Source: a virus
IMG/VR virus record: IMGVR_UViG_3300042870_000487
Coordinates: 1-47,602 of that record
Reading direction: 5' to 3' (one strand)
DNA: 47,602 nt
Both the position numbers and the translations under genes were made by a program. The first letter of the stretch is position 1; each line of letters begins with the position of its first letter. The notes beneath the pieces were generated by a model. The model was not told the origin of the DNA, searched no databases, and saw nothing but the letters and a program-made list of their open reading frames with translations. Below, in pieces: positions 1 to 42,163 of this stretch.

Positions 1-87
1 GACGCAATGACAGACTATTTTAATACAGCATACTATGTTGACGTTAATATTGGTAAATGGAATAAATCTTACATTTTGGAGAAATAA
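1..87 (+). CDS. C-terminal fragment of an unknown gene
   Basis: An open frame runs from the first base of the window to a TAA at 85-87 and encodes the last 28 residues of a protein ending in SYILEK. The start lies outside the window. The fragment has no recognisable motif. Only 3 bases separate its stop from the ATG of the HNH gene, so the two genes are probably co-transcribed. Confidence 0.55.
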   Translation, partial: DAMTDYFNTAYYVDVNIGKWNKSYILEK

Positions 88-11107: not shown

Positions 11108-11136
11108 ATTATAGCGTAATATGGATTATTTGTCAA
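11108..11136 (-). promoter_or_regulatory. sigma70 promoter
   Basis: On the minus strand TTGACA (11131-11136) and TATAAT (11108-11113), both perfect consensus, with a 17-base spacer. It drives the hypothetical gene at 11075 and probably IF-1. The -35 box lies just before the end of the gene at 11140, as in the promoter arrays. Confidence 0.88.
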
Positions 11137-18620: not shown

Positions 18621-19157
18621 TTAATCCCAGAGTGCTCTAAAATATTTACCAAACAGATCCAAACCTTCTTGGATACGATCTTCATGTAGTTGATGCCCTT
18701 CAGCATCATACCAATGGTCATCAGGATTCTTATCAACCATTTGAAATGTATCTTCTACTTTACCTGTCATAGGATTGGGATATGTTTTATCAGTTTTAAT
18801 CCAATCATAGTCACTTTTACCATGATGATATTTGTCACCATAATCTTCAAATGCTATTTGTTGAAAGGCCCAAATCATTTTATCTAATGTTTCATCCCAA
18901 CGTTTAGCACCTTCATTCCATGCCTCATCGTGTGATTCAATATAGAAATCAAAGCTTTGTTGTGTGCTATATTCTTCACCACCAACATCTACAAAATCAC
19001 TAGGGATACCTTGTTTAGTTTGTTTTAGTTGGATTAATGCCGGATAGATAATAGTAGCTAGAGTGTGGTCTGTACTCCAAGTATCAAATCTATCAATTTG
19101 CACATTGATTTTTCTGCGATTACCCTTTCTAGGGTAGTTGCCAATATTTATTTTCAT
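18621..19157 (-). CDS. conserved hypothetical phage protein
   Basis: A 178-residue protein of a family that I recognise from T4-like phages of aquatic bacteria, with the signature DRFDTWSTDHTLATIIYPAL and an aromatic/acidic C-terminal half containing WDETLDKMIWAFQQIAFE. A Lys/Asp-rich insert precedes DEWYDAE-like acidic sequence. The function is not known. It overlaps the upstream gene by ATGA-type spacing and is part of the nucleotide-metabolism operon. Confidence 0.75.
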   Translation of the reverse strand: MKINIGNYPRKGNRRKINVQIDRFDTWSTDHTLATIIYPALIQLKQTKQGIPSDFVDVGGEEYSTQQSFDFYIESHDEAWNEGAKRWDETLDKMIWAFQQIAFEDYGDKYHHGKSDYDWIKTDKTYPNPMTGKVEDTFQMVDKNPDDHWYDAEGHQLHEDRIQEGLDLFGKYFRALWD

Positions 19158-19477
19158 ACTTCTTTATTTACCTTGCCTTCAATAAATGCAACAAAATGTT
19201 CTCCGTGCTTCACTGAAGCATATTCAATTTTCTTGTATTCTTTACTTAGTTGTGCTAGTTGTTCTAATGAATTACCTTGGCAAATAAAATCGTTTGATTC
19301 ACGGTCATATAACAAAATAATATCATCTACTAATCTTGTTTCTAATTTATAAACATTAGATTTGATTGGTTCTTCAATAATCATTAATTGTAGATTTTTA
19401 TGTAGTTTATATATTGTATGAAATTTACCCATAAACCATCCCAAAGCTAGGATTAGAATAATATCAATTAGTGTCAT
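19154..19477 (-). CDS. small membrane-anchored hypothetical protein
   Basis: A 107-residue protein with one N-terminal membrane segment (residues 3-18, LIDIILILALGWFMGKF) and a cytoplasmic domain of about 85 residues with LETRLVDDIILLYDRESNDFICQG. The pattern suggests an anchored soluble domain. It overlaps the downstream gene by 4 bases. No family function known. Confidence 0.7.
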   Translation of the reverse strand: MTLIDIILILALGWFMGKFHTIYKLHKNLQLMIIEEPIKSNVYKLETRLVDDIILLYDRESNDFICQGNSLEQLAQLSKEYKKIEYASVKHGEHFVAFIEGKVNKEV

Positions 19478-19481
19478 AATA

Positions 19482-19763
19482 TTATTTATTAATAGTTAAG
19501 TTAGACCATTTCTTTAATTTCTTAAATTTATTCTTTTTGGCCTGATCTAAACCACCAACTGTAATACCTATATTATTTTCAGTAATCAATTCAACCATAG
19601 CTAATAAGTCACCCAATTCTTCTTCAAGCATTTGGATATTAGTCATTGGTTTGTTTGGTTTCATTTGATCTGGACCGAACCTGAAACACTTGCTAACAGC
19701 TTGTGTAACTTCGGCACATTCTTCTTGTAAGATTAATAGAATTTCTCTTGTATCTTCGTTCAT
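19482..19763 (-). CDS. MazG-like nucleotide pyrophosphohydrolase
   Basis: A 93-residue helical protein with the MazG metal-binding pattern: LQEECAEVTQAVSK (ExxE on the first helix) and LEEELGDLLAMVELI (ExxD on the second). Single-domain MazG-like proteins cleave NTPs or dNTPs to the monophosphate plus pyrophosphate, and in phages have been linked to nucleotide pools or (p)ppGpp control, though direct evidence varies. Its ATG overlaps the upstream stop by ATGA. Substrate cannot be predicted from sequence. Confidence 0.82.
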   Translation of the reverse strand: MNEDTREILLILQEECAEVTQAVSKCFRFGPDQMKPNKPMTNIQMLEEELGDLLAMVELITENNIGITVGGLDQAKKNKFKKLKKWSNLTINK

Positions 19764-19990
19764 TTTTTATTCCATCTAAAGTTGTTTAATTCAGCTACCA
19801 CTTCATCTAATGATTCCTGTACTTCCCATGTACCATGAGGAGGACAAAAAACATATGTAATATTTTCAATTATACCATCTTCTTTTTTAGCAAGATTAGG
19901 TGTATTGAATACTGTTGAAATCAAATCAATATTGATTGCAATTTTATTGCCTTTGTGTGCGTCACTGGCATTTGTAAGAGAGATAAACAT
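19760..19990 (-). CDS. small hypothetical protein
   Basis: A 76-residue beta-rich protein: MFISLTNASDAHKGNKIAIN, IDLISTVFNT, then CPPHGTWEVQESLDEVVAEL. It weakly resembles the small FlbD-like fold (short strands followed by a helix), but no function can be assigned. It overlaps genes on both sides (TAATG upstream, ATGA downstream), giving strong context support. Confidence 0.7.
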   Translation of the reverse strand: MFISLTNASDAHKGNKIAINIDLISTVFNTPNLAKKEDGIIENITYVFCPPHGTWEVQESLDEVVAELNNFRWNKK

Positions 19991-20148
19991 TAAATTCCGA
20001 TCATATTGGTTAAGTGTAAAAAAACAATTGCAAAATTAACTGCAAAAACTAATCCATCCATGTAGTACATCCACTTAGGACTATTAGTATAATCTTTGGT
20101 TGCTAATATGTAACCAAAAAACAATGTAGCAAAAACACTAATTATCAT
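19990..20148 (-). CDS. very small membrane protein
   Basis: A 52-residue frame with two membrane segments: MIISVFATLFFGYILA at residues 1-16 and LVFAVNFAIVFLHLTNMIGI at the C-terminus, joined by a polar loop (TKDYTNSPKWMYYMDG). It starts within a TAATG overlap with the cupin gene and ends in a TAATG overlap with the next gene, so it is a translationally coupled member of the operon. Function unknown; candidates include a holin-like or accessory membrane protein, but nothing proves this. Confidence 0.72.
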   Translation of the reverse strand: MIISVFATLFFGYILATKDYTNSPKWMYYMDGLVFAVNFAIVFLHLTNMIGI

Positions 20149-20660
20149 TATTGTTTCCTATTAGCTTTAGACATTACATATTTTTCATGATAGGGTTTCC
20201 AATCATTTAAGTAATGGTCGTGTTTAATCCAACGATGTATTCCTTTCTTAGCTTCTACTAAGAAACCCCATTCACGTTGCTGTGGTCCCATAAAGAACAT
20301 TGTTGTTGCTGGCTCTTCACCTTCAAGTTCAAGCCAATGATAATCACCTGCATTACGTTTAATAATACTACCGGGCCCACGCCATGTTTGAAATTCTGTA
20401 AGCAATTTACCATCATCATTGAATACAGGGGTATGCTCCCAATAACCACCCTTCAATACAATAGTCATGTAGGGCCAAGGATGGTCATGAAATATAGGAT
20501 CATCACTACGTACAATCTTATGTAATGTAACATTGAGTGGGAACCAACTACGGTCTTTAAGAAACAAATAATAGCGGTGCATGTAATCTAGTCCTGTCCT
20601 ACGATCAGGAATCAAACGATAACGACCTAACTTATTCATTACTTTGTGAAATAAACTCAT
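20148..20660 (-). CDS. cupin-like protein
   Basis: A 170-residue protein with a cupin-type core: HKIVRSDDPIFHDHPWPYMT with two His in the first motif, followed by VLKGGYWEHTPVF and then GDYHWLELEGEEPATTMFF, where the second motif His is found. Such double-stranded beta-helix proteins bind a metal and act as dioxygenases, epimerases or binding proteins. The C-terminal 40 residues are aromatic and basic (GIHRWIKHDHYLNDWKPYHE). Homologues occur in aquatic phages. A promoter with TATAAT lies just upstream. It starts the operon that runs to 17445. Confidence 0.72.
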   Translation of the reverse strand: MSLFHKVMNKLGRYRLIPDRRTGLDYMHRYYLFLKDRSWFPLNVTLHKIVRSDDPIFHDHPWPYMTIVLKGGYWEHTPVFNDDGKLLTEFQTWRGPGSIIKRNAGDYHWLELEGEEPATTMFFMGPQQREWGFLVEAKKGIHRWIKHDHYLNDWKPYHEKYVMSKANRKQ

Positions 20661-20683
20661 TACTATCTCCTATCTGATTGACT

Positions 20684-20712
20684 ATTATAACATACAACTG
20701 AATTAAACACAA
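20684..20712 (-). promoter_or_regulatory. sigma70-type promoter
   Basis: On the minus strand TTGTGT (20707-20712) and a perfect TATAAT (20684-20689) with a 17-base spacer, 24 bases before the cupin gene. It directly follows the terminator of the HTH gene. Confidence 0.7.
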
Positions 20713-20721
20713 GTATAAAGG

Positions 20722-20748
20722 CAGAAAAAGGGTGACGAATCACCCTTT
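20722..20748 (-). terminator. intrinsic terminator of the HTH gene
   Basis: On the minus strand AAAGGGTGA-TTCG-TCACCCTTT followed by TTCTG: a 9-bp stem with a TTCG tetraloop and T-run, about 20 bases after the HTH stop codon. Confidence 0.9.
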
Positions 20749-20769
20749 ATTTACATCTCAAATTTGAGA

Positions 20770-21030
20770 TTAAACTAGACCCATTGCCAAGGCCTTGTAA
20801 CCAGCGGCTACAACTTCACGACTAGGGGTACCCAAACGATACTTAGTGTATGTACCACCGAGTTTGTTTGTACGCTTGTTAGCGTAGATTGCCAAACCGC
20901 TACGCAAGCGCAAATCGCTTACTGTTGCTGTTGGATTAGCAAATCCAAAACGTTGGGTAATTTGCTTCGCAGTCATTTCTGCGCCGTTTTCAAATGCCTC
21001 AATAAGGCGTGCTTGTTTAGTTAATGTCAT
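20770..21030 (-). CDS. helix-turn-helix phage regulator
   Basis: An 86-residue basic protein. Residues 13-42 (NGAEMTAKQITQRFGFANPT plus ATVSDLRLR) form a winged-helix/HTH pattern, and the remainder (YANKRTNKLGGTYTKYRLG) would be the wing. This small family is common in aquatic phages. The ATG at 21030 is chosen for its AAAGGAAAAT site; an upstream extension to 21102 would run through the promoter. The gene is alone between its own promoter, which contains a 16-bp perfect palindrome, and a terminator. That layout strongly suggests autoregulation (inference). Confidence 0.85.
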   Translation of the reverse strand: MTLTKQARLIEAFENGAEMTAKQITQRFGFANPTATVSDLRLRSGLAIYANKRTNKLGGTYTKYRLGTPSREVVAAGYKALAMGLV

Positions 21031-21073
21031 TTTATTTTCCTTTAAAAAATCGCTGTTTTCACAACGTGTTACT

Positions 21074-21102
21074 ATTGTATAACAACTAGTTGTTACATAC
21101 AA
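21074..21102 (-). promoter_or_regulatory. promoter with palindromic operator
   Basis: On the minus strand TTGTAT (21097-21102) and TACAAT (21074-21079) with a 17-base spacer. The spacer is almost filled by the perfect 16-bp palindrome TAACAACTAGTTGTTA (21080-21095), and the two promoter boxes are themselves near inverted copies. Bound protein would block RNA polymerase. It precedes the HTH gene. Confidence 0.75.
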
Positions 21103-21126
21103 TATCTTTTGGTCACCTAGTTTAAT

Positions 21127-21975
21127 TTAGATGTCCAAAAACTTTAACTCAAACATATCTGCTTGAGGGTCAGCACCCTTGTAACCACGAGGATTACATA
21201 CCACGCGGGTAGTGCCAATATTATAATCAAATGGGTCATGCATATGACCATGAGTCCATAAAGTAATTTGTGGATGATCTAAAATGAATTCACTCAATTC
21301 ACTATGATATCCGCCATTCATTATACTATGTACATTATGCTTGTATCTGTCATGTGTACTCATTGCGCTAGGTGCATGATGTCCTACAAATACAACTTTT
21401 TGATCCTTTAAATCAACCAACACTTGTTTCAAATAACTCAATGTTTGTTGATGACGGTACACAGTATGTGCTGGACGTAATTTAGAATATCCATGTTCAT
21501 CATTACGTATTACCCGATAATCATTCATCATGTCAGCTAATGCATGTAATGTTAGTGGATCACCTTTATTACAATCAGTCCACAATGTAGCACCAATAAA
21601 GGACACTTCATTGATAACCTTAATATCATTCTCAAGGAAGTAAACATTAGGATAAACTGCACAGGCTGCACGTAAGTGGTTAATGCTTTCTTTCCATCTT
21701 CCGTGATAGAATTCATGATTGCCTGCAATATAAACAACATGAGGAAACTCATTGCTTACTCTACTGAGGAAAGCACGAAATCTTTGTGCGGCTTTTTGTC
21801 TTGTGCCTAATTCAGTATACGATTCATATGGGCTAATTACTGTTGGTGGATGATTATGTAAATCCTCTGCTAACATAATATCACCGGATAAGATAAGGAC
21901 CTCAGCACCACCAGTGTTCTTAAGGTCAATATCTTCAAACTCTAAATGTAAATCCGAACAAATTCCTATTTTCAT
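21127..21975 (-). CDS. calcineurin-like metallophosphoesterase
   Basis: A 282-residue metallophosphoesterase with all five family motifs: DLH (Asp8, His10), GD (Asp32), GNHE (Asn86, His87), GHHAPS (His199) and THGHMHD (His242, His244). The enzymes use two metal ions to cleave phosphomono- or diesters; the phage substrate is unknown. It overlaps the SWIM gene start/stop by 4 bases. A second, degenerate member of the family is encoded at 27238-27930 and lacks most of these ligands. Confidence 0.92.
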   Translation of the reverse strand: MKIGICSDLHLEFEDIDLKNTGGAEVLILSGDIMLAEDLHNHPPTVISPYESYTELGTRQKAAQRFRAFLSRVSNEFPHVVYIAGNHEFYHGRWKESINHLRAACAVYPNVYFLENDIKVINEVSFIGATLWTDCNKGDPLTLHALADMMNDYRVIRNDEHGYSKLRPAHTVYRHQQTLSYLKQVLVDLKDQKVVFVGHHAPSAMSTHDRYKHNVHSIMNGGYHSELSEFILDHPQITLWTHGHMHDPFDYNIGTTRVVCNPRGYKGADPQADMFELKFLDI

Positions 21976-22304
21976 TTAACTAATTCTGCTATATGTTTAC
22001 ATGTACCACGATACATATATCCTGGGCATGTACAAGTTTTTTCATCAGTATCAATGGAGTAAACATTACCTTTACTACCTGACACTTTAATGATTGTACT
22101 CTTTTCTTTAATTGCTTTGAAAGGATTTGGCTTTACTGGAGTAAACTTACGACCACGCTTGTCTATTGTGATCGGGTTTTTGAAATACTGAGGCGTAGTA
22201 GAACCAACCTTGATGTATGCAACCATTTTGCTCCCGTCAAGTAAGTATGTATGATTAGCATTGTTGCTATCATTCCAAACTGTTGTTTCTACTACTGCTT
22301 CCAT
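21972..22304 (-). CDS. SWIM-type zinc-finger protein
   Basis: A 110-residue protein. The C-terminus carries the SWIM pattern CxCx(n)CxH as CTCPGYMYRGTCKHI. The preceding 95 residues are beta-rich, with KRGRKFTPVKPNPFKAIKEK giving a basic patch, and a short strand (GNVYSIDTDEK) leads into the finger. SWIM domains bind DNA or protein. It lies between the metallophosphoesterase (4-base overlap) and the first member of the small-gene promoter array. Role unknown. Confidence 0.82.
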   Translation of the reverse strand: MEAVVETTVWNDSNNANHTYLLDGSKMVAYIKVGSTTPQYFKNPITIDKRGRKFTPVKPNPFKAIKEKSTIIKVSGSKGNVYSIDTDEKTCTCPGYMYRGTCKHIAELVK

Positions 22305-22305
22305 A

Positions 22306-22797
22306 TTAAGCTACCTCTGTTTCATCTTGTGCAATACGATCTTCTTCGTCCATAATTGCAGACTCTAATGTAACAAAGGCTCCGTCGTGGTCACAAACAA
22401 ACCAAACAGCTTTGCCATCAATGTTGCGCAGGATATAGTCATATTCCTGATGTTCGCACTTATTAAAATAATCATTGATATCATTGTAATAGCGAGCCTC
22501 GCAACCTACTTCACCACGATCACGACCATAGAATGTAGTCATGTCTTTGTACAAATGAGAATATTCAACCAATGTCATGTCTTCCATATCATAGTGACTG
22601 AATGGGTGCTTTGTACCGATCGTTGGACGCAAACTAGAGATATCACCTAAATCAATCAGGTCCCGCATTACGAAGGGATTAGAATAGTATTCCATCAACA
22701 TCTTACCGTTGTGAGCCAAGTAACCATCCCAGTGACAGTATACCTGACCGATAGTACCATCAGCGAATTCTAATGAGATTGTAGAACGAGTAGCCAT
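22306..22797 (-). CDS. conserved hypothetical protein (MATRSTI family)
   Basis: A 163-residue protein beginning MATRSTISLEFADGTIGQVYCHWDGYLAHNG when read in two parts; the start MATRST plus YCHWDGY signature marks a small family widespread in phages and bacteria, with no known function. The C-terminus is acidic (MDEEDRIAQDE). It is the last gene of the 22.3-24.5 kb array and has an array promoter immediately upstream (22832-22860). It may serve early in infection, as promoter strength suggests. Confidence 0.8.
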   Translation of the reverse strand: MATRSTISLEFADGTIGQVYCHWDGYLAHNGKMLMEYYSNPFVMRDLIDLGDISSLRPTIGTKHPFSHYDMEDMTLVEYSHLYKDMTTFYGRDRGEVGCEARYYNDINDYFNKCEHQEYDYILRNIDGKAVWFVCDHDGAFVTLESAIMDEEDRIAQDETEVA

Positions 22798-22831
22798 TTT
22801 TTAAGTCCTTTATTTAACTGTCTAAGATTCT

Positions 22832-22860
22832 ATTATATACCCAAAGTGATTTATTGTCAA
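22832..22860 (-). promoter_or_regulatory. array promoter 1
   Basis: Minus strand TTGACA (22855-22860) and TATAAT (22832-22837), both perfect, 17-base spacer containing the array signature ATAAAT and GGGTA. The TGA stop of the upstream gene lies inside the -35 box. Drives 22306-22797. Confidence 0.92.
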
Positions 22861-23135
22861 GCCTCAAGCCGCTCTATAATCCAACCCTCTTGGACCATAT
22901 ATTGATGAAAATCCCGTGTAGCACGAATCTCGGGAGAGTCGGATGTAGTACCGCACATCTGTAAAGACCGTTCACGCATTTCAACAATTTCTGATCCAGT
23001 CCAAGTTGCAGTTGGATCAGTCATCATTTCATTGAACATGAATTGTTTCGACCTCTTATCCAATGTATTACTGAACGGGTTTAATTGCAAAATAAATCCA
23101 GGACCAAGTGAATAAACTGTTTGAAGACTAGCCAT
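22857..23135 (-). CDS. small array gene, unknown function
   Basis: A 92-residue protein starting MASLQTVYSLGPGFILQLNP, with a helical middle (SEIVEMRERSLQMCG) and a C-terminal FHQYMVQEGWIIERLEA. No recognised domain. The ATG is preceded by AAAGGAG and the array leader. Its stop codon forms part of the next promoter's -35 box. It probably belongs to a set of independently transcribed, early small proteins. Confidence 0.75.
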   Translation of the reverse strand: MASLQTVYSLGPGFILQLNPFSNTLDKRSKQFMFNEMMTDPTATWTGSEIVEMRERSLQMCGTTSDSPEIRATRDFHQYMVQEGWIIERLEA

Positions 23136-23169
23136 TTTAAAACTCCTTTATTTAACTGTCTAAGAATAT

Positions 23170-23198
23170 ATTATAGCACAAATGCCATTTATTGTCAA
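23170..23198 (-). promoter_or_regulatory. array promoter 2
   Basis: Minus strand TTGACA (23193-23198) and TATAAT (23170-23175), 17-base spacer; ATAAATGG follows the -35 box. Drives 22857-23135. Confidence 0.92.
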
Positions 23199-23201
23199 AT
23201 T

Positions 23202-23474
23202 TTACACCAAGTCAACTTGGACTTGTTTGTTGCGGAAAGTATGACCTAATCCTGTAGGAACCGTCTCATTTTTACGTTTGGCTTCATAACGCAAATACGA
23301 CAATTTAATCAATGCATCCCAGCAAACTGTACGGGCTGTATTGGTAGCAAACATTTCCGTCATTTGCTTGATAGTCATATACATACCAACATCGTTTTCG
23401 CTTCCATCACCTTTAAAAATTACACGGAATTTTTGTGAGTTTTTGAATCCGTCAATGATAGTTTTTGTACGCAT
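23202..23474 (-). CDS. small array gene, unknown function
   Basis: A 90-residue basic protein. It has beta-type sequence at the start (FRVIFKGDGSENDVGMYMTI), a helical middle (KQMTEMFATNTARTVCWDAL) and a basic C-terminal third. No known domain. It has its own array promoter and AAAGGAC ribosome binding site, and is followed by another array promoter within 4 bases of its stop. Confidence 0.75.
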   Translation of the reverse strand: MRTKTIIDGFKNSQKFRVIFKGDGSENDVGMYMTIKQMTEMFATNTARTVCWDALIKLSYLRYEAKRKNETVPTGLGHTFRNKQVQVDLV

Positions 23475-23507
23475 TTTTTAGTCCTTTTCTTTACTGTTTA
23501 AGATTCT

Positions 23508-23536
23508 ATTATAGCAGAATACCCATTTATTGTCAA
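23508..23536 (-). promoter_or_regulatory. array promoter 3
   Basis: Minus strand TTGACA (23531-23536) and TATAAT (23508-23513), 17-base spacer with the shared ATAAATGG. Drives 23202-23474. Confidence 0.92.
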
Positions 23537-23540
23537 ATTT

Positions 23541-23801
23541 TTACATTGACCAGTAAGTCTCTGTTGCAGGATTACAACAGTGTGGAGTGTCAGCATCAAT
23601 CTCTATTTCCTTGCCGGTCATCAAGTTTTTGACCGTTTTCTTAGGAAAAACATAGTATGGGTTAAGAACCTTGAATGCTTCCAAAGTTTTTGCGGTTTGT
23701 GCTAACGGGTTAGTTTCAATGAATTTCATCATTGACAAGAAACCCATACCCAAAAACTCTGCATCTTTTTGGATAACTTTGATTGCTGTAACTTCTTTCA
23801 T
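23541..23801 (-). CDS. small array gene, unknown function
   Basis: An 86-residue protein: MKEVTAIKVIQKDAEFLGMG, a helical stretch (MMKFIETNPLAQTAKTLEAF), a beta-type segment with NLMTGKEIEIDADT, and a C-terminal HCC pair. The cysteines could bind a metal but there is no standard motif. Own array promoter and AAGGAC site upstream. Function unknown. Confidence 0.75.
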   Translation of the reverse strand: MKEVTAIKVIQKDAEFLGMGFLSMMKFIETNPLAQTAKTLEAFKVLNPYYVFPKKTVKNLMTGKEIEIDADTPHCCNPATETYWSM

Positions 23802-23832
23802 TTGTGTCCTTTAGTTGACTGTTTAAGATTCT

Positions 23833-23861
23833 ATTATATACCCAAAACCATTTATTGTCAA
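23833..23861 (-). promoter_or_regulatory. array promoter 4
   Basis: Minus strand TTGACA (23856-23861) and TATAAT (23833-23838), 17-base spacer, ATAAATGG and GGGTA signature. Drives 23541-23801. Confidence 0.92.
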
Positions 23862-23864
23862 ATT

Positions 23865-24152
23865 TTAACGTTTGTCGCAATACTCAAAAAGGATCCACTT
23901 AGCACGATTGAGGGCTTGACGGGCATCTTCGGCTCGCATATAGTCAATGTCACCGTACTCGGTATTAATCATTTCTTGTGCATCAGACATAAGACTAGCG
24001 GCCATCATTGCAGGACCTGAGAAGCAAAAAGTACTACTTTGTTCTACAGCCTCACGCATTTGGTCTTCTGTGCAACCATACATGCGGATTTGACGTTTTT
24101 CCTGCTCGTTTGTAGCAATCATTTCACCTATTGTGTCGTAACGTAAACTCAT
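23865..24152 (-). CDS. small array gene, unknown function
   Basis: A 95-residue helical protein starting MSLRYDTIGEMIATNEQEKR. The frame stays open upstream to 24281, but that extension would run across the array promoter at 24183-24211 and part of the next gene; the ATG at 24152, with AAAAGGAG ahead, is therefore used. Middle: EDQMREAVEQSSTFCFSG; C-terminal: ARQALNRAKWILFEYCDKR. No known domain. Confidence 0.75.
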   Translation of the reverse strand: MSLRYDTIGEMIATNEQEKRQIRMYGCTEDQMREAVEQSSTFCFSGPAMMAASLMSDAQEMINTEYGDIDYMRAEDARQALNRAKWILFEYCDKR

Positions 24153-24182
24153 TTCTAACTCCTTTTGACTGAATAAGACTCT

Positions 24183-24211
24183 ATTATATACCCAAAACCA
24201 TTTATTGTCAA
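24183..24211 (-). promoter_or_regulatory. array promoter 5
   Basis: Minus strand TTGACA (24206-24211) and TATAAT (24183-24188), 17-base spacer, ATAAATGG and GGGTA signature. Drives 23865-24152. Its -35 box overlaps the end of the upstream gene. Confidence 0.92.
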
Positions 24212-24474
24212 ATTTGGTATGAGCAATAACCACGAATTTTGCTTTGTTTATTGGTAAAGCTTTCGTTGAATTTAACTTCATACCCTTTAGCTTTAAGAGC
24301 CGTCATTAGTGTTGACAGGTCACAGTCTTCCTCAAGGAAAGCATTAGCACCATTTTGATAACTATAGGGGGTGATTTTATCAGCGATACCAAGACTGACC
24401 AGTCGTGCTTTGGGGAAACGTGCCCAAGCGTGTCCAGGGTCACCGAATACTTTGATAGAAATTTTCTTAGTCAT
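24208..24474 (-). CDS. small conserved protein, array gene
   Basis: An 88-residue protein with the pattern VFGDPGHAWARFPKARLVSL, LGIADKITPYSYQNGANAFL and LEEDCDLSTLMTALKAKGYE, a family I recognise from phages and plasmids but without an assigned function. Own array promoter upstream; its stop overlaps the -35 box of array promoter 5. Confidence 0.78.
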   Translation of the reverse strand: MTKKISIKVFGDPGHAWARFPKARLVSLGIADKITPYSYQNGANAFLEEDCDLSTLMTALKAKGYEVKFNESFTNKQSKIRGYCSYQI

Positions 24475-24506
24475 TTGTAGTCCTTTATTTAACTGTCTAA
24501 GATTGT

Positions 24507-24535
24507 ATTATAGACCCAAAATGATTTATTGTCAA
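24507..24535 (-). promoter_or_regulatory. array promoter 6
   Basis: Minus strand TTGACA (24530-24535) and TATAAT (24507-24512), 17-base spacer containing ATAAAT. Drives 24208-24474. Located 3 bases from the clpP stop codon. Confidence 0.92.
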
Positions 24536-24537
24536 AT

Positions 24538-25134
24538 TTAGGACATGTTGCGTTTTTGCAACAGATTATCTGCTAGGCCATACGCTACTGCCTCACTTGC
24601 ACTCATAAAAAAGTCACGTTCCATGTCTTTTGCAAGCTCCTCAAATGTCTTTCCTACACTATTGTGGTCAACATAGATTTGTGTTAGTGATTTCTTCATA
24701 GCTAGTATTTCTTTAACTTGAATCTCCATATCAGTAGCCTGACCACGGGCACCACCTGAGGGTTGATGAATCATATGCCGAGCATTGGGTAGAATACTAC
24801 GTTTACCTTTTGCACCAGCTTGGCCTAGTAAACTTCCCATTGAACAAGCCTGACCCATAACAATAGTTTGAACATCTGGTCTAATGAATTGCATACAATC
24901 ATAGATTGCCATACCAGCTGTTACTGAGCCACCCGGGCTATTGATATAGATGCTGATATCCTTATCTGAATCTTCACTCTCTAAGTACAGTAGTTGAGCA
25001 ACGATTAGATTTGCCATTTGGTCATGCACCTCACCTTCAAGTAAAATAACACGATCTTTTAGTAGACGGCTGTAAATGTCATAACTACGTTCGCCTTTAC
25101 TTGTTTGTTCTAATACCATTGGGACTAAGCTCAT
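24538..25134 (-). CDS. clpP: ClpP serine peptidase subunit
   Basis: A 198-residue ClpP. The catalytic triad is intact: Ser98 ([10 protein letters not shown]), His123 ([10 protein letters not shown]) and Asp174 (MERDFFMS). The N-terminus is [19 protein letters not shown], which corresponds to the mature bacterial form, so the usual propeptide is missing and no self-cleavage should be needed. The glycine-rich handle and [11 protein letters not shown] stretch are as in bacteria. ClpP forms a double-ring peptidase fed by ClpX or ClpA. Here a phage ClpX with an intact ClpP-binding IGF loop is 6 kb away. AAGGAAAC precedes the ATG. Confidence 0.96.
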
Positions 25135-25158
25135 ATTGTTTCCTTCTTTTAAAAATAT

Positions 25159-25187
25159 TTGCGATAAATACAGAATGGTGCTATAAT
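25159..25187 (+). promoter_or_regulatory. sigma70-type promoter
   Basis: TTGCGA (25159-25164) and a perfect TATAAT (25182-25187) with a 17-base spacer. The -10 box lies in a small inverted repeat GTGCTA-TAAT-TAGCAC. A GATAAATAC late-like string overlaps the -35 box. It drives the plus-strand gene at 25220. Confidence 0.7.
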
Positions 25188-25219
25188 TAGCACTTCATTA
25201 ACTATTTGAGATATTATAC

Positions 25220-26293
25220 ATGAGATATACTGAATTTACAAGAACTTTGGTTGAAGCTGTTGACCAAATTAAAACTGTTACCAAGCACGATGTGGAACAG
25301 ACATTGCGTAAAGCTGGGTATGAAGATTTCAAAGTTAACGGTAATAAAATCAACGTTTTGGTTCAGATTCCCTCTGGGCAACAAGAAAACGAGTTCCGTG
25401 TGTCTATGTTAGAAGAAATATTAACAATACTAAAGAAAGTATACGGAAATCAAGTATCATTCAGTAATGATCCGGGACTGAGTAGTTTGGGTGGGGTTGT
25501 GTTTGATGATGGTCCGGTATCAGTTGTTGTTAAAGATATTGGTAAACAAGGTAACAACAGTGCAGGTGTTGGTAACGAATTAGAAATGGCTGGTTTAATA
25601 GCATCTGTGATTCAAAAATATACGACGGCAAACATTACATTTGTTGATCCACGTGGTAAGAAAATGACTATTAAAAATTGTACAAACGTTGACGTTAAGG
25701 GTCGTGACACCGCAGATAGAAAAAAAGCTGACGTTGTGTTGTCTAGTGATAAAGGTAGTCTACCTATTAGTATTAAAAAACTTAATGCTGATATGTGGGA
25801 AAGTGCTGATACTATGATTGGTTCAAGGGCCCGTGTTATTCTTGACAAACTAGTTAAAGAAGGTTTAGTTAAATTAAAAAAGATTGGCGAAAGAAAAACC
25901 AGATCTGGGTCAGTTCCTGTATACGCTTTATCTAAAGAGATTGTTATGGAGCCAACTGAAGAAGAAGCACTAAGTGCTGTGTTCGGTAATGACTTAAACC
26001 CTAAGGGCGGAATTGTTGTTCAAACGTTTAAGCCAGAGCATTTTGTACAAGACGGTCCTACAGTAACTATTGATTGCCACGCGGTTATTACTAATGCTTC
26101 AGAGATTCCAGAAAGTCATTTAATGGTTTGGTTACTGCGTAATGACAGCACACGCAATGGCGGAACATTGGGTGTTGCGGGCATTCGTCCATTAGGTGTA
26201 ACATTATCACGTGGTATCGGTAAGAAGGGTACAAAAGACGTTATCTTGGTAGATCAGTACGGTAACGTAGTAGATAATCCAAATATCAAGTAA
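25220..26293 (+). CDS. large conserved hypothetical protein, possible nuclease-like fold
   Basis: A 357-residue protein of unknown function. Residues about 115-200 contain GVGNELEMAGLIASVIQKYT, then VDVKGRDTADRKKADVVLSS and GSLPISIKKLNADMW. The spacing of an early Glu, a later Asp and a following Ile-Lys resembles the PD-(D/E)XK nuclease core, although the second acidic residue before the Lys is replaced by Ser. Residues 205-250 look like a small winged helix (ARVILDKLVKEGLVKLKKIG). The C-terminal part is beta-rich and lysine-poor. The gene stands alone on the plus strand behind its own promoter and converges with the SprT-like gene. Confidence 0.7.
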   Translation: MRYTEFTRTLVEAVDQIKTVTKHDVEQTLRKAGYEDFKVNGNKINVLVQIPSGQQENEFRVSMLEEILTILKKVYGNQVSFSNDPGLSSLGGVVFDDGPVSVVVKDIGKQGNNSAGVGNELEMAGLIASVIQKYTTANITFVDPRGKKMTIKNCTNVDVKGRDTADRKKADVVLSSDKGSLPISIKKLNADMWESADTMIGSRARVILDKLVKEGLVKLKKIGERKTRSGSVPVYALSKEIVMEPTEEEALSAVFGNDLNPKGGIVVQTFKPEHFVQDGPTVTIDCHAVITNASEIPESHLMVWLLRNDSTRNGGTLGVAGIRPLGVTLSRGIGKKGTKDVILVDQYGNVVDNPNIK

Positions 26294-26785
26294 TTAGCAT
26301 TTAGCAAAAGTTTGATGCTTAAGCCAACGCTTTTGGCCATGACCTACTTTTAATGATATCCCGTGTTTAGCAAGTCTTTCTCTATGTTCATAGAAGCTAG
26401 GACCATGACTCATTAGACGTTGTTTACCTTCACGTTCACGTTTTACTCCGTCAATATCCCATTGATATTGATGTACCATTTCATGTGCTAGAGTAGTGAT
26501 TAACCATTGTTTACAGAACCACTTGTCCATAAGACGTATTTTACAATAGGTTTTACGGTATTTAACTATATCATAACTAGCATAGCACATACCCCAGTAT
26601 TTTCTACAACGGCCAATAACCTCAAATTCAGGCATGTCTAGTTTATTGTTAAAACAAGCTTTATTGATTAGTTTATATAGTTCTATTACTTCAGCTTCAT
26701 TGGTTCGATAGCTTAGACGTTTTTGATAACCGATACTTGGTAGCGGTTCACGCATTAGTTTGGAAAGTTCGGATTTTTTTGTCAT
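26294..26785 (-). CDS. SprT-like zinc metalloprotease
   Basis: A 163-residue SprT-like protein. The zinc motif HExxH is present as LAHEMVHQYQW, and the third ligand region SHGPSFYEHRERLAKHGI follows at the expected distance. The N-terminal helix LYKLINKACFNNKLDMPEF and the strand with GRCRKYWGMCYASY are typical. In eukaryotes the SprT domain of Spartan cuts proteins cross-linked to DNA; bacterial SprT is less studied. In a phage it might clear DNA-bound host proteins (inference). An AATAAATA box lies just before the ATG. Confidence 0.88.
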   Translation of the reverse strand: MTKKSELSKLMREPLPSIGYQKRLSYRTNEAEVIELYKLINKACFNNKLDMPEFEVIGRCRKYWGMCYASYDIVKYRKTYCKIRLMDKWFCKQWLITTLAHEMVHQYQWDIDGVKREREGKQRLMSHGPSFYEHRERLAKHGISLKVGHGQKRWLKHQTFAKC

Positions 26786-26883
26786 ACTATATTTATTGTA
26801 GCAGGACCCTGTAATCTAGCAATATATTAGGAAAAATAACCAATTTATTGTCCTAGAGTAAATATATGTTTAGGAGAAATTAA

Positions 26884-27222
26884 ATGGAAATTATTATAGG
26901 ATTGGTTATTTTGGGCGGCGTAGCTTGGTTCTTTTTCATGCGTGATGGAAAGACAACAGAAGTAGCGGCACCTTATAAGGTAGAAGCACCTGCTCCGGTA
27001 GAAGAGCCAGTTAAGGTTGAGGCACCTAAAGTAGAAGCACTACCTGCTGGAACAGAAGCTTTATCAATTGTAGCACCTGCAACAAAAGCCATGGCACCGG
27101 CTAAGCCTAGAGCGGCCGCTAAACCTAAGGCACCTGCTAAAACAGCTGCCAAAGCACCAGCTAAAGCCCCGGCAAAAACTGCTAAAGCCCCTGCTAAGCC
27201 AAAAGTGTCAGTAGCAAAATAA
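26884..27222 (+). CDS. membrane-anchored Lys/Ala/Pro-rich protein
   Basis: A 112-residue protein with one N-terminal membrane segment (IIIGLVILGGVAWFFFM) and a long unstructured tail. The tail changes from an acidic, Glu/Pro/Val part (EAPAPVEEPVKVEAPKVEA) to a basic part of KAPAK-type repeats (residues about 75-112), like histone H1 or TonB-type linkers. AGGAGAAATTAA precedes the ATG. It may bind nucleic acid or bridge membrane and wall, but there is no direct evidence. A similar Lys/Ala/Pro-rich secreted protein is at 44321. Confidence 0.72.
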   Translation: MEIIIGLVILGGVAWFFFMRDGKTTEVAAPYKVEAPAPVEEPVKVEAPKVEALPAGTEALSIVAPATKAMAPAKPRAAAKPKAPAKTAAKAPAKAPAKTAKAPAKPKVSVAK

Positions 27223-28817: not shown

Positions 28818-30713
28818 TTAAGTTGATTCCTTAACCTCTGCATCTACCACATTGTCGTCAGATTTTTGTGATTCAGATGTTTCTTTAGCTTTTTGTTCCT
28901 CTTCAGATTTAACTTTAGTAATAGGACCAATAGCTTCATATAGTTCTTTGACCTTGTTGTCAATTTCTTCAACTTCAGACCCAGCTAATGCAACTTCTAG
29001 TGCATCAATAGCATTAGATGCTTTTTCTTTTTCTTCTGCTGTAACTTTGTCACCGTATTTTTCATAGTCTTTACGGAAACTATTTAATGTTGATTCACCG
29101 CTATTTTTTGCTTGAATGAATTTAACTTGTTTAGCATCAGCCTCAGCATTTTCTTCAGCATCATTAACCATCTGTTGAATTTCTTTTTCAGTTAGTCCTG
29201 AATCTGATTTGATAGTGATTTTATTTTCTTTGCCTGTACCTTTGTCTTTGGCACTGACATTAAGAATTCCATTAGCATCAATATCTAATGTAACTTCAAT
29301 CTGAGGAACACCACGCATTGAAGGTGGAATACCCTCTAAATTAAATTCACCTAATATCTTATTGTATGTAAACAAATCACGTTCACCTTGTGCAACCTTA
29401 ATAGTTACAGCTGGTTGATTGTCATCTGCTGTTGAAAACACTTGTGAATGTTTAGTTGGAATAGTTGTATTCTTCTTAATCAACTTAGTAAACACACCGC
29501 CTGATGTTTCAATACCCAAACTTAATGGGGTAACATCAAGTAACAATACATCTGTACGTTCACCGGCTAACACACTACCTTGAAGTGCCGCACCCGCTGC
29601 CACTGCCTCGTCTGGATTAACATCCTTGCGAGGTGCTTTACCGAACAATGATTCAACAATTTCTTGTACTTTTGGCATACGTGTCATACCACCAACAAGA
29701 ATAACTTCGTCAATATCAGATGTAGAAACACCTGCATCAGTCATTGCTTGCTTACATGGTTGAATACTACGTTGAATTAATTCATCAACTAATGATTCTA
29801 ATTTAGCACGACTTAACTTAACATTCAAATGTTTAGGACCATTAGCATCGGCTGTAATATATGGTAAGTTAACATCTGTTTGTGCTGAACTTGACAATTC
29901 AATCTTAGCCTTCTCAGCCGCTTCTTTTAAACGCTGTAGTGCTAGCATATCTTTCTTAAGATCAACCGCATTGTCTTTCTTAAACTCATCAACCAAATAA
30001 TCCATGATACGTTGGTCAAAGTCTTCACCACCTAAGAATGTATCACCGTTAGTTGATAATACTTCAATTTGAGTTTCGCCCTCAACATCTGCTAATTCAA
30101 TAATAGATACGTCAAATGTACCACCACCCAAGTCATAGACAGCAATCTTGCGATCCGTTTTATCTTGTTTATCTACACCGTATGCTAGAGCAGCCGCTGT
30201 AGGTTCGTTAATAATACGTAATACTTCTAATCCTGCAATACGTCCTGCATCTTTAGTAGCTTGACGTTGACTATCATTGAAGTAAGCTGGCACTGTGATA
30301 ACTGCTTGAGTAACCGTTGTACCCAAATAGTCTTCCGCAGTCTTTTTCATTTTGCGTAGTACTTCAGCACTAATTTGCGGAGGTGCTAATTTTTTATCTA
30401 ATACTTCCACCCATGCATCACCATTCTCGTTTTTAACGATTTTATATGGCATTAAATCAATATCTTTTTGAACAGCGTTTTCTGTGAACTTACGTCCAAT
30501 TAATCGCTTGGCAGCGTAGATAGTATTTTTGGGATTTGTAACTGATTGACGTTTGGCACTTGCACCTACTAGAATCTCATCATTGGCATAGGCAACGATT
30601 GAGGGTGTAGTTCTTGCACCTTCACTATTTTCAATTATTTTGGGGATTCCGTTTTCAATAACGGCTACACATGAATTTGTGGTACCTAGATCGATACCGA
30701 TTACTTTGCTCAT
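28818..30713 (-). CDS. dnaK: DnaK (Hsp70) chaperone
   Basis: A full-length, 631-residue Hsp70 (E. coli DnaK is 638). The ATPase domain has [59 protein letters not shown] and [14 protein letters not shown]; the linker [19 protein letters not shown] leads to the substrate-binding domain and helical lid. The C-terminus ends [10 protein letters not shown] and so lacks the EEVxD-type tail of bacterial DnaK. The ATG at 30713, with GGAG ahead, starts at the conserved [10 protein letters not shown]; a 17-codon extension is not supported. No DnaJ or GrpE is present in the window, so host partners would be used. Full DnaK in a phage is rare. Confidence 0.97.
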
Positions 30714-30719
30714 AGTTTT

Positions 30720-30735
30720 CTCCTTTGTAAAGCAA
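30720..30735 (-). promoter_or_regulatory. possible ROSE-like RNA thermometer at the dnaK start
   Basis: On the minus strand UUGCU, a 6-base loop (UUACAA), and AGGAG precede the dnaK ATG. This repeats the pattern before hsp20 and fits the core pairing of ROSE elements (U-A, C-G, G-G, U-A). The predicted stem is short. Confidence 0.35.
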
Positions 30736-30775
30736 GATTTTTTCTCTATAGACCCGTTAGGCATCTACAGAAAAG

Positions 30776-36977: not shown

Positions 36978-38312
36978 TCACTTGTCGTCACGGAAACGAA
37001 CAAATCTGGGGAAACGCAAACTATATGTTCCATCTTGATTCTGTGTAATCACATCACATAAGACTTCAGCAGTGCGACCAATGACCAAATTACGGTTAGT
37101 CCAATAGTCATCTCTATCAGCATCACTAAAGCCACTACCCACATTGACTGTAATTTCTTTCCCGTCGTCAACTCCATGACAAACCAGTGCTCCAAGTCTT
37201 CCCAAGTTTCTACCAGTACCTTCTTCAACACCTACGACCTCCAAGTCTACAGTTAATGTTGGCTTCCATTTCATCCAGTCAGTACTACGCTTACAGATAT
37301 ACGGAGCCTCTAATTCTTTAATCATAATGCCTTCAAATCCTGCATTAACTTGATCCTTAGCATAACGTTCAAGTTGATCCTTACCTGCGGCTGTATCTAA
37401 GTCAACCATAATATGTGGTAATAGTTCAACATTAGGCATAGTGTCAACTACATGCCGAATATGTTCAAGTATATTAATACGTTTACGTAGTTGAGCATTC
37501 CAATGACCTTCACGGAAATCACTTAAAGGAATAATATCAAAGATATTAAACACACTGTCATCCGCTTGTACATCAGTCTTGCGGCGTGCTTGTCGCATTA
37601 GTTCCTGGAATGTATTACCAATCACTTCACCATCTAACACAAATCCATTAATCAATGCGTTCTGATGTCCTCTAGCAATCTTAACAAAGTTGTTGCTAAT
37701 CTGTTCTTCAATATGACCAAAGTTATCAAATACTTTACCATTACGACTGAAACAAATAGTAGTTACTCCCTCACTTGCACTAGGTATAACCATCAACAAT
37801 ACACGTACACCATCCAACTTAGGCTCTAAACGTTTAGTGCCTTTCATCTCAGGACGACCTTCACTATTAGTTGCTAGTTGACAACCAAAGATAGGGATTT
37901 CATATTCTGTTTTCTTACAGATTTTGTTAATTGTTTTGTCACTAATACCTGCACGTAAATCTCTACGAATAACAGGAGCACAGAATGTATTCCATTCTAT
38001 ACTATCAAAACGTTCACTGATTTCATTGATAGCATCTAGTGCGGCATTACCTGACAAATCACGTTGTGATAACATAGTAAGTAATGTATTAAACTCACTC
38101 CAAGGATTTTCAGCATCAATGATGCCTGCTGTATCAGGAACTTTTCTTACACCAAACGTCACGTAGGGATTATAACAAGCTTTAGTCAAACCCAGAAAAA
38201 TCTGAGCATTAGTGCTACCTAGGACACTTGCCTCAAGCGCCTGTAAAATGATATCTTCTTTATGAAGGCGGCTATCTGATTCGTTTAATTTATTAATCCA
38301 ACTTGCACTCAT
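36978..38312 (-). CDS. ATP-dependent DNA ligase (T4 gp30-like)
   Basis: A 444-residue ATP-dependent DNA ligase. Motif I is EPKLDGVRVL with nucleophile Lys165; motif III FVLDGEVIG; motif IV EGIMIKE; motif V WMKWKP. The N-terminal 150 residues match the extra domain of T4-type ligases, and the C-terminal OB domain (LEVVGVEEGTGRNLGRLGAL) is present. Start at 38312 is chosen since it overlaps the upstream stop by ATGA and has GGAG ahead; the ATG at 38336 is less likely. It seals nicks during phage DNA replication and repair. Confidence 0.95.
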   Translation of the reverse strand: MSASWINKLNESDSRLHKEDIILQALEASVLGSTNAQIFLGLTKACYNPYVTFGVRKVPDTAGIIDAENPWSEFNTLLTMLSQRDLSGNAALDAINEISERFDSIEWNTFCAPVIRRDLRAGISDKTINKICKKTEYEIPIFGCQLATNSEGRPEMKGTKRLEPKLDGVRVLLMVIPSASEGVTTICFSRNGKVFDNFGHIEEQISNNFVKIARGHQNALINGFVLDGEVIGNTFQELMRQARRKTDVQADDSVFNIFDIIPLSDFREGHWNAQLRKRINILEHIRHVVDTMPNVELLPHIMVDLDTAAGKDQLERYAKDQVNAGFEGIMIKELEAPYICKRSTDWMKWKPTLTVDLEVVGVEEGTGRNLGRLGALVCHGVDDGKEITVNVGSGFSDADRDDYWTNRNLVIGRTAEVLCDVITQNQDGTYSLRFPRFVRFRDDK

Positions 38313-38545
38313 AGTTTCTCTCCGCAATGTGGACACAGTCGGGTATTGGCATTACGCATTTCCTTCAGTGTCTTGTTAAGTTTCTTAGCATCGGCTAGCT
38401 GACTTTTAATCATCTTACGATCCCTATCATGTTTGGCCTTGCCTAATTCAGCTTTAAGGTGTAGCTTCATTTTGTTAAGCCTACCCTCAAAGATTTCAAT
38501 AAAGCCCGTTATGCCCGGGCCTTTGTCTGCTGGTGTAACATTCAT
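38309..38545 (-). CDS. small coiled-coil protein with CxxC end
   Basis: A 78-residue protein: a lysine-rich amphipathic helix (NKMKLHLKAELGKAKHDRDR) that likely forms a coiled coil, and a C-terminal CPHCGEKL with one CxxC. A dimer could complete a zinc site. Stop overlaps the ligase ATG by ATGA, so it is translationally coupled to it, which suggests a link to DNA metabolism (inference). Confidence 0.75.
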   Translation of the reverse strand: MNVTPADKGPGITGFIEIFEGRLNKMKLHLKAELGKAKHDRDRKMIKSQLADAKKLNKTLKEMRNANTRLCPHCGEKL

Positions 38546-41052: not shown

Positions 41053-41319
41053 TTAAATTTCAGTTTCGTATTCGTAAAACTTAACAGATGGATCCAACTG
41101 TTTCAATTGTTTAGCGGCAGTCATCAACTCCTTATATCTCCGATTGACCTCTGCGCGGGGAAGTTCACCATCGCAGGTCAAGTTCTCAGGGCTAAGAGCA
41201 GAATCAATTTGATCTGCCAAACGTTGACGACCTTGGGCAGTAGCAATTTCGTATTGCTCACCTTTGAAGAAACTGTTCCAGTGATTCTTCTGGTCAATGT
41301 ATTTTTGCAATGCTTTCAT
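41053..41319 (-). CDS. small array gene, unknown function
   Basis: An 88-residue helical protein (MKALQKYIDQKNHWNSFFKG, ATAQGRQRLADQIDSAL, LPRAEVNRRYKELMTAAKQL). No known domain. It is the first member of the second promoter array: TTGACA/TATAAT promoter at 41354-41382 with the same leader as the 22.8-24.5 kb array. Confidence 0.75.
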   Translation of the reverse strand: MKALQKYIDQKNHWNSFFKGEQYEIATAQGRQRLADQIDSALSPENLTCDGELPRAEVNRRYKELMTAAKQLKQLDPSVKFYEYETEI

Positions 41320-41353
41320 GTTTAACTCCTATTGTTTAACTGTTTAAGATTCT

Positions 41354-41382
41354 ATTATATACCCAAATTGATTTATTGTCAA
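41354..41382 (-). promoter_or_regulatory. array promoter 7
   Basis: Minus strand TTGACA (41377-41382) and TATAAT (41354-41359), 17-base spacer, ATAAAT and GGGTA signature. Drives 41053-41319. Confidence 0.92.
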
Positions 41383-41384
41383 AT

Positions 41385-41705
41385 TTAGGAGCCTGTAGTC
41401 ACAAATAAGATTTCAGGGTCAATTGAGCTTTGTTTGAAAGACTCAATAAAAATGTGATGGTTGTCACCACTGTTACTGATAAGAGTATCAGCCGCAATAT
41501 ACAATGACTTCCAAGTATTACCTTCAATAGCAACCTCATGATCACCGGATCCATAAGCCTGATAGATAACTTTTGTGACACCTTTGAAAGGATGAGTTTC
41601 GTGCAAGGCGTCAACCTCGTAGATTGACCAAACGGCATTCAAACCCAACTCGTCACGTGCTTTATCAAAATAAGCAAATTTAACATCAAATTCTTGGTCT
41701 GTCAT
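41385..41705 (-). CDS. small array gene, unknown function
   Basis: A 106-residue slightly acidic alpha/beta protein (EFDVKFAYFDKARDELGLN, then VIYQAYGSGDHEVAIEGNTW and SNSGDNHHIFIESFK). No known domain. Own array promoter and AAAGGAC site. Its stop is 3 bases before array promoter 7. Confidence 0.75.
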   Translation of the reverse strand: MTDQEFDVKFAYFDKARDELGLNAVWSIYEVDALHETHPFKGVTKVIYQAYGSGDHEVAIEGNTWKSLYIAADTLISNSGDNHHIFIESFKQSSIDPEILFVTTGS

Positions 41706-41737
41706 TTTATGTCCTTTATCTAACTGTCTAAGATTCT

Positions 41738-41766
41738 ATTATAAGCCCAAATCCATTTAATGTCAA
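41738..41766 (-). promoter_or_regulatory. array promoter 8
   Basis: Minus strand TTGACA (41761-41766) and TATAAT (41738-41743), 17-base spacer. Drives 41385-41705. Confidence 0.92.
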
Positions 41767-41768
41767 AT

Positions 41769-42101
41769 TTATGCGGCTAATTTTTGTTGCATTTTTGCAA
41801 CATTATCTTGGACCAATTGCTCAAATCCTGATTTAGTAACTGAGTAACCCTGTTCTTTGAGCATCTTTTTAATGTGGGGTTGAATAAAACCCTTAGACTG
41901 TAGGATTTCTAGCGGGGATTCACTTTCCAAACGGGCAAAGTATTCCTCAACTGTAAAGTTCTTTGTAAGGAATGTAAGGAAACTTGCTTTGCTACCTTTA
42001 GCATATTTGAAACGTACTACAAACTTTGTAGTACCGTCAACTGGGTTTGTATAGTCAACATACTCTGTACCGTAGAAGTTGCCCTTGATGAATTTAGTCA
42101 T
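41769..42101 (-). CDS. small array gene, unknown function
   Basis: A 110-residue basic protein: an N-terminal beta part (FIKGNFYGTEYVDYTNPVDG, TKFVVRFKYAKGSKASF) and a C-terminal helical part (KKMLKEQGYSVTKSGFEQLV, NVAKMQQKLAA). No known domain. Own array promoter at 42135-42163. Confidence 0.75.
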   Translation of the reverse strand: MTKFIKGNFYGTEYVDYTNPVDGTTKFVVRFKYAKGSKASFLTFLTKNFTVEEYFARLESESPLEILQSKGFIQPHIKKMLKEQGYSVTKSGFEQLVQDNVAKMQQKLAA

Positions 42102-42134
42102 AATTTAGTCCTTTTCTTTACTGTCTATGTATGT

Positions 42135-42163
42135 ATTATATAGCCAAATCCATTTAATGTCAA
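42135..42163 (-). promoter_or_regulatory. array promoter 9
   Basis: Minus strand TTGACA (42158-42163) and TATAAT (42135-42140), 17-base spacer. It starts just after the terminator of the glycosyltransferase gene, so the array genes are insulated from upstream transcription. Confidence 0.92.

Follow-up and report, generated by a model that had tools for sequence, protein, structure and literature searches.

We analysed the IMG/VR virus record IMGVR_UViG_3300042870_000487 as one stretch of 47,602 nucleotides, which is called the window below. An array of six promoters, each followed by one small gene, is located on the minus strand between positions 22832 and 24535. The original prediction had placed these promoters at 22832, 23170, 23508, 23833, 24183 and 24507 without naming the strand, and all six were present there. 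In the direction of transcription, promoter-leader unit 1 (24475–24535, with its -35 box at 24535) serves the F9 gene (24208–24474; 88 amino acids), unit 2 (24153–24211) the F7 gene (23865–24152; 95 amino acids), unit 3 (23802–23861) the F11 gene (23541–23801; 86 amino acids), unit 4 (23475–23536) the F0 gene (23202–23474; 90 amino acids), unit 5 (23136–23198) the F38 gene (22857–23135; 92 amino acids) and unit 6 (22798–22860) the F5 gene (22306–22797; 163 amino acids). As predicted, perfect TTGACA and TATAAT boxes with 17-bp spacing and the same ATAAAT after the -35 box were seen in all six promoters, and the stop codon of the upstream ORF lies in or near the -35 box, ending between -5 and +3 bp from its start in every case. 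In the units at 22860 and 24211, the TGA within TTGACA is itself the stop codon of the upstream gene (F38 and F9 respectively). A gene for a ClpP-type protease (24538–25134, minus strand; Pfam CLP_protease, 8e-80) lies directly upstream of the array. The minus strand further encodes a full-length DnaK homologue (28818–30764) with about 65% identity to annotated DnaK and an ATP-dependent DNA ligase (36978–38336; phrog_114, 1e-88).

The whole window contains 11 perfect TTGACA-15..19-TATAAT sites, whereas 100 dinucleotide shuffles of the window gave 0.19 sites on average and never more than 3. Nine of them are one and the same element, namely the six listed above and three further copies on the minus strand that the original prediction had overlooked (41354–41382, 41738–41766 and 42135–42163). 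These three belong to promoter-leader units that serve the F13 gene (unit 42102–42163, with a terminator-like hairpin upstream; gene 41769–42101, 110 amino acids), the F19 gene (unit 41706–41766; gene 41385–41705, 106 amino acids) and the F4 gene (unit 41320–41382; gene 41053–41319, 88 amino acids). A tenth, divergent copy with TATCAT as its -10 box is found on the plus strand at 585–613, within a promoter-leader region (585–673) that precedes the F18 gene (674–1063; 129 amino acids). The other two perfect sites, at 11108 and 38624, are not followed by ATAAAT. The former (11108–11136, minus strand; TTGACAAATAATCCATATT-N2-GCTATAAT) also lacks the leader of the unit and is conserved in sister contigs, at G001:223455 and G018:24841. 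A general sigma70 scan of positions 19000–27000 returned 35 sites against 32 expected, so that only sites matching at 12 of 12 positions are informative.

The element can be written as TTGACA-WTAAAT-N11-TATAATA-NA-N-(T/A)CTTA-NNCAGT-...-AAGGA/GGAG-...-ATG. Conservation extends over approximately 60 bp and includes ATAAAT, bases of the spacer and the leader with its ribosome-binding site. The leaders of the six array promoters, which had been described as very similar, have in common a TATAATA-NA-N-TCTTA-NNCAGT motif and an AAGGA/GGAG Shine-Dalgarno sequence.

The products of the array genes had been described as small proteins without assignment, which our searches bear out: the six proteins have 86–163 amino acids, and neither they nor the other unit genes of the window gave a significant match to Pfam or PADLOC. 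Among the six, a clear PHROG match was obtained for F5 only (phrog_1987, 6e-27); this group, like phrog_22119, to which F13 belongs, has no known function, and the same is true of F9, F7, F11, F0, F38 and F4. The F9 family comprises 15 members with 70–97% amino acid identity to the F9 protein of the window, and F0, with 27 members, is the joint largest family. AlphaFold models were confident for F0 (alpha/beta; pLDDT 88) and F7 (predicted to be all-helical; pLDDT 86). Neither model had a significant match in the PDB, and for F0 one structural match, to an uncharacterised viral protein, was obtained. The unit products are probably dispensable, host-directed accessory proteins.

At least 120 stretches of IMG/VR contigs, which are up to 352 kb in length, matched the full promoter-leader pattern, whereas 84,980 prokaryote genomes had no copy of it; a core-only pattern likewise had no copies in prokaryote genomes. 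Since these genomes lack copies of both patterns, a family of host promoters was ruled out. When 20 long contigs were scanned over their whole length, 2–15 unit copies were found in each, clustered in arrays, compared with none in the reversed control. Altogether, 512 distinct copies were collected across 161 loci; all relatives are metagenomic contigs and were sampled through the motif itself. An ORF with a ribosome-binding site follows 462 of the 512 copies, usually 26–34 nucleotides past TATAAT. These ORFs have a median length of 90 amino acids and fall into 109 small-protein families, including 50 singletons. At these loci, which were chosen by the motif, perfect hexamers go together with WTAAAT in 424 of 540 cases, and conservation was also seen for TTTGGG in the spacer and for CTTAGACAGTTAA in the leader. 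The same promoter core may be followed by other leader classes (ACTTGTATTGATTGATTAAAGGAG, GAGTCTTATTCAGTCAAAAGGAG and ACATACATAGACAGTT) or by a very short type, CACTTATGAACT, which may be leaderless; such alternative classes were seen at many loci (e.g. L012 1711, L059 783 and L009 11573).

The Gp23 capsid protein (PF07068, about 1e-99) is encoded on the four longest relatives (G001–G004). By the Gp23 gene, the nearest named phages are RaK2-like jumbo phages, with about 67% nucleotide identity. Megablast gave no match in named phages. A 37-bp match to 121Q and its relatives, which starts at the -10 box, was taken as chance because it is weak (E 0.5), occurs at a single place per genome and lies mostly under an annotated gene. 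A known RNA element as the identity of the unit was rejected, as there was no Rfam match.

Terminator-like sequences were found in the 90 bp upstream of 5.1% of the copies compared with 1.1% of random positions, and the leaders are unfolded (mean MFE -0.5). An inverted repeat around the -35 box (TACCCAAAC...GTTTGGGTA) was rejected as part of the unit, with dyads of at least 8 bp in 5.5% of the copies compared with 2.2% in the control. In a minority of units, the end of the upstream gene and the spacer do match as a perfect inverted repeat on either side of the -35 box, over up to 14 bp and slightly more often than expected by chance (e.g. L148 4949, L095 6763, L140 5244 and L167 3983). Because terminators between the array genes are mostly missing, transcripts are likely to overlap as a nested polycistronic set and not to correspond strictly to one per gene. 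The hexamers and their spacing represent the sigma70 optimum; it is this perfect host-type promoter sequence that would argue for early expression and a role in host takeover.

Comparison of the relatives showed that the arrays adjoin fixed anchor genes and that the content between anchors differs. Island A is anchored by F5, followed in some contigs by a metallophosphoesterase gene, island B by F3, island C by the AAA ATPase F1, island D by F13 and island E by F20/F35, a MoxR-type ATPase plus a VWA protein. A further anchor, F31, resembles an ATP-dependent DNA ligase as read from its sequence and not from a search. Island A reads F9-F7-F11-F0-F38-F5 in the window and F9-F7-F11-F56-F0-F5, without F38, in L070; shorter variants are F0-F19-F5 (L144) and F0-F59-F5 (L168). 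The families F0, F4, F8, F9, F11, F12 and F24 are found in several islands, with units of F9 in at least three. In island D, homology between the window and three contigs (L131, L022 and L080) runs through the second promoter-leader up to the start codon, after which F8 replaces the F19 of the window; it resumes 5–6 bp before the next -35 box. In two others (L116 and L063) the whole F19 unit is missing and the flanking alignments to the window overlap by approximately 74 bp, the trace expected if a unit were excised or inserted through the repeats.

When the loci were taken together, 17.6% of the ends of alignment breaks were no more than 20 bp from a unit compared with 4.3% expected, an excess that is itself partly expected because the repeat is common to every unit. 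Genes with 93–96% nucleotide identity occur in different islands between flanks at background identity, for example F22 in L147/L024 and F9 in L158/L130. Both flanks were unrelated for 43% of unit-gene pairs (n = 150) but for only 10% of pairs of size-matched control genes from the same loci (n = 824), the pairs not being independent. As judged from these alignments, whole units have been exchanged, have been lost and have changed position, both from one island to another and from one phage to another. The predicted modular cassette that recombines at the promoter repeats is well supported by breakpoints at the repeats and by units in unrelated contexts, and gene content between the repeats, for which fixed content would have spoken against this prediction, varies among the relatives.

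The two parts of the unit behave differently. The A or T after TTGACA is more alike within than between genomes (0.150; maximum of the within-family permutations 0.059), and so is the spacer (0.063; maximum 0.036); this likeness of the core within a genome holds even across different gene families. The leader tracks the gene family (0.158; at most 0.031 in permutations) and hardly tracks the genome (0.012). Most simply, a moving unit would bring its own leader along and adopt the local core, either because the crossover falls within the core or because the core is homogenised afterwards, but lineage-specific selection could also give a genome-specific core.

Taken together, we consider it probable that this is an array of mobile promoter-gene units in a clade of large T4-type phages with a Gp23 capsid. 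In our best reading, the units are host-sigma70 early promoters which double as junctions for homologous recombination. Each would consist of a strong sigma70 promoter, a short leader that has a Shine-Dalgarno sequence but no folded structure, and a single small ORF with its stop codon right next to the -35 box of the following unit. The host RNA polymerase with sigma70 would transcribe the units immediately on infection. During mixed infection, the 60-bp promoter-leader could provide the homology for phage or host homologous recombination, so that an incoming ORF would already be expressed and its neighbour left unbroken. Crossovers would fall mostly in the promoter core, or cores would be homogenised afterwards, and in either case a gene would retain its own leader and gain the resident core.

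Strong conservation of spacer and leader positions that sigma70 does not need, seen across divergent contigs, might instead point to the operator of a regulon, with a phage repressor, activator or sigma-appropriation factor acting at WTAAAT/TTTGGG and the leader while ordinary illegitimate recombination turns the genes over. A co-evolving regulator would also give core types that vary by genome. However, such an operator does not account for swaps that begin and end exactly at the repeats, for the single repeat left behind as a scar where a unit was lost, or for relocation being four times as frequent among unit genes as among controls. We regard it as an unlikely account of the repeats; it is compatible with mobile units as an additional layer. 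Similarly doubtful is a dedicated phage factor that binds the WTAAAT/TTTGGG core, joins the units into a single early regulon and also stimulates or directs their recombination, amounting to integron-like exchange without a stem-loop or attC; if true, jumbo phages would have an integron-like, exchangeable accessory genome.

Assemblers can be misled by short repeats and all relatives are metagenomic contigs, so false joining of unrelated fragments at the 60-bp repeats might mimic shuffling. A typical read is, however, longer than the repeat, and the same arrays were seen more than once, in separate contigs that derive from different samples (the window and G018; G001; L070). Anchors and gene order are reproducible, single-copy neighbours are still collinear, and the flanks of swapped units have diverged and are not chimeras of identical sequence, all of which makes an assembly artefact very improbable. 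Independent evolution of strong promoters at each gene under vertical inheritance is likewise very improbable. Selection could keep hexamers at the sigma70 optimum, but the identity reaches beyond the hexamers into spacer and leader, bacterial genomes have no copies, and units with 93–96% nucleotide identity occur in different islands.

Mobile promoter-gene units of this kind recall the PeSL elements of T4-like phages, an early promoter plus stem-loop (Arbiol 2010, via PMC4503421) which, as presented in PMC4503421, has been put forward as the driving force of modular shuffling among T4-type phages. Going by that account, both systems have a host-type early promoter repeated before small plastic genes, although the timing here is deduced from sequence; here the promoter is a perfect TTGACA-17-TATAAT in nine of nine units. 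Small plastic genes are shuffled in the phages that carry the units too, and the phages are T4-type, in our case by the Gp23 capsid of the relatives G001–G004. In contrast to PeSL as described there, a stem-loop or terminator, when tested for, was not part of the unit (5% terminator-like, leaders unfolded), and the unit was therefore not classed as PeSL. The repeat of approximately 60 bp with its conserved spacer and gene-linked leader, and its occurrence in uncultured jumbo phages, also differ from that description.

In the cultured jumbo phages RaK2 and 121Q, which by their capsid gene are the closest named relatives, small unknown genes are likewise preceded by promoters close to the consensus, arranged in arrays. 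Their motif, TTGACA-N8-AGTACTG-TATAAT, differs from the unit in its 16-bp spacer with AGTACTG and the lack of WTAAAT, and in most cases the leader that follows has a strong hairpin, for example GGGATACATAGTGTATCCC. AGTACT occurs 104 times in 15 kb of RaK2 (L178, 226000–241000) and 152 times in 23 kb of 121Q (L179, 133000–156000). The string AGTACTGTATAAT of these promoters was not found in the literature searched, and the paper on the RaK2 genome says nothing about promoters. Because the arrays of RaK2 and 121Q carry another element, the wider group of jumbo phages seems to follow a single strategy that comes in lineage-specific versions.

Other known repeats share single features with the unit. 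SAS and ESAS of cluster K mycobacteriophages are short repeats before many small non-structural genes of various families, but their 13-bp GGGATAGGAGCCC, which lies at the ribosome-binding site 3–7 bp before the start codon, is unlike the unit consensus; ESAS has an inverted repeat, and neither is described as a promoter (PMC3203893). A promoter-like motif before most ORFs of one region of the haloarchaeal virus HGTV-1 was also proposed to drive shuffling, but it consists of an archaeal TATA-like box and an inverted repeat (PMC3950731). Like lambdoid-type morons, the units have their own promoter, but an own terminator is mostly absent. From integron cassette arrays they differ in that, by leader MFE, the repeats have no general folded attC-like structure.

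The motif of approximately 60 bp provides a sequence handle for accessory, probably host-directed genes of a large group of uncultured jumbo phages and marks over a hundred gene families at once, so that gain and loss of phage ORFans becomes testable at base resolution. The units also show that modules can be shuffled at promoters when the stem-loop known from PeSL is missing, and that cultured relatives employ a different, hairpin-bearing version.
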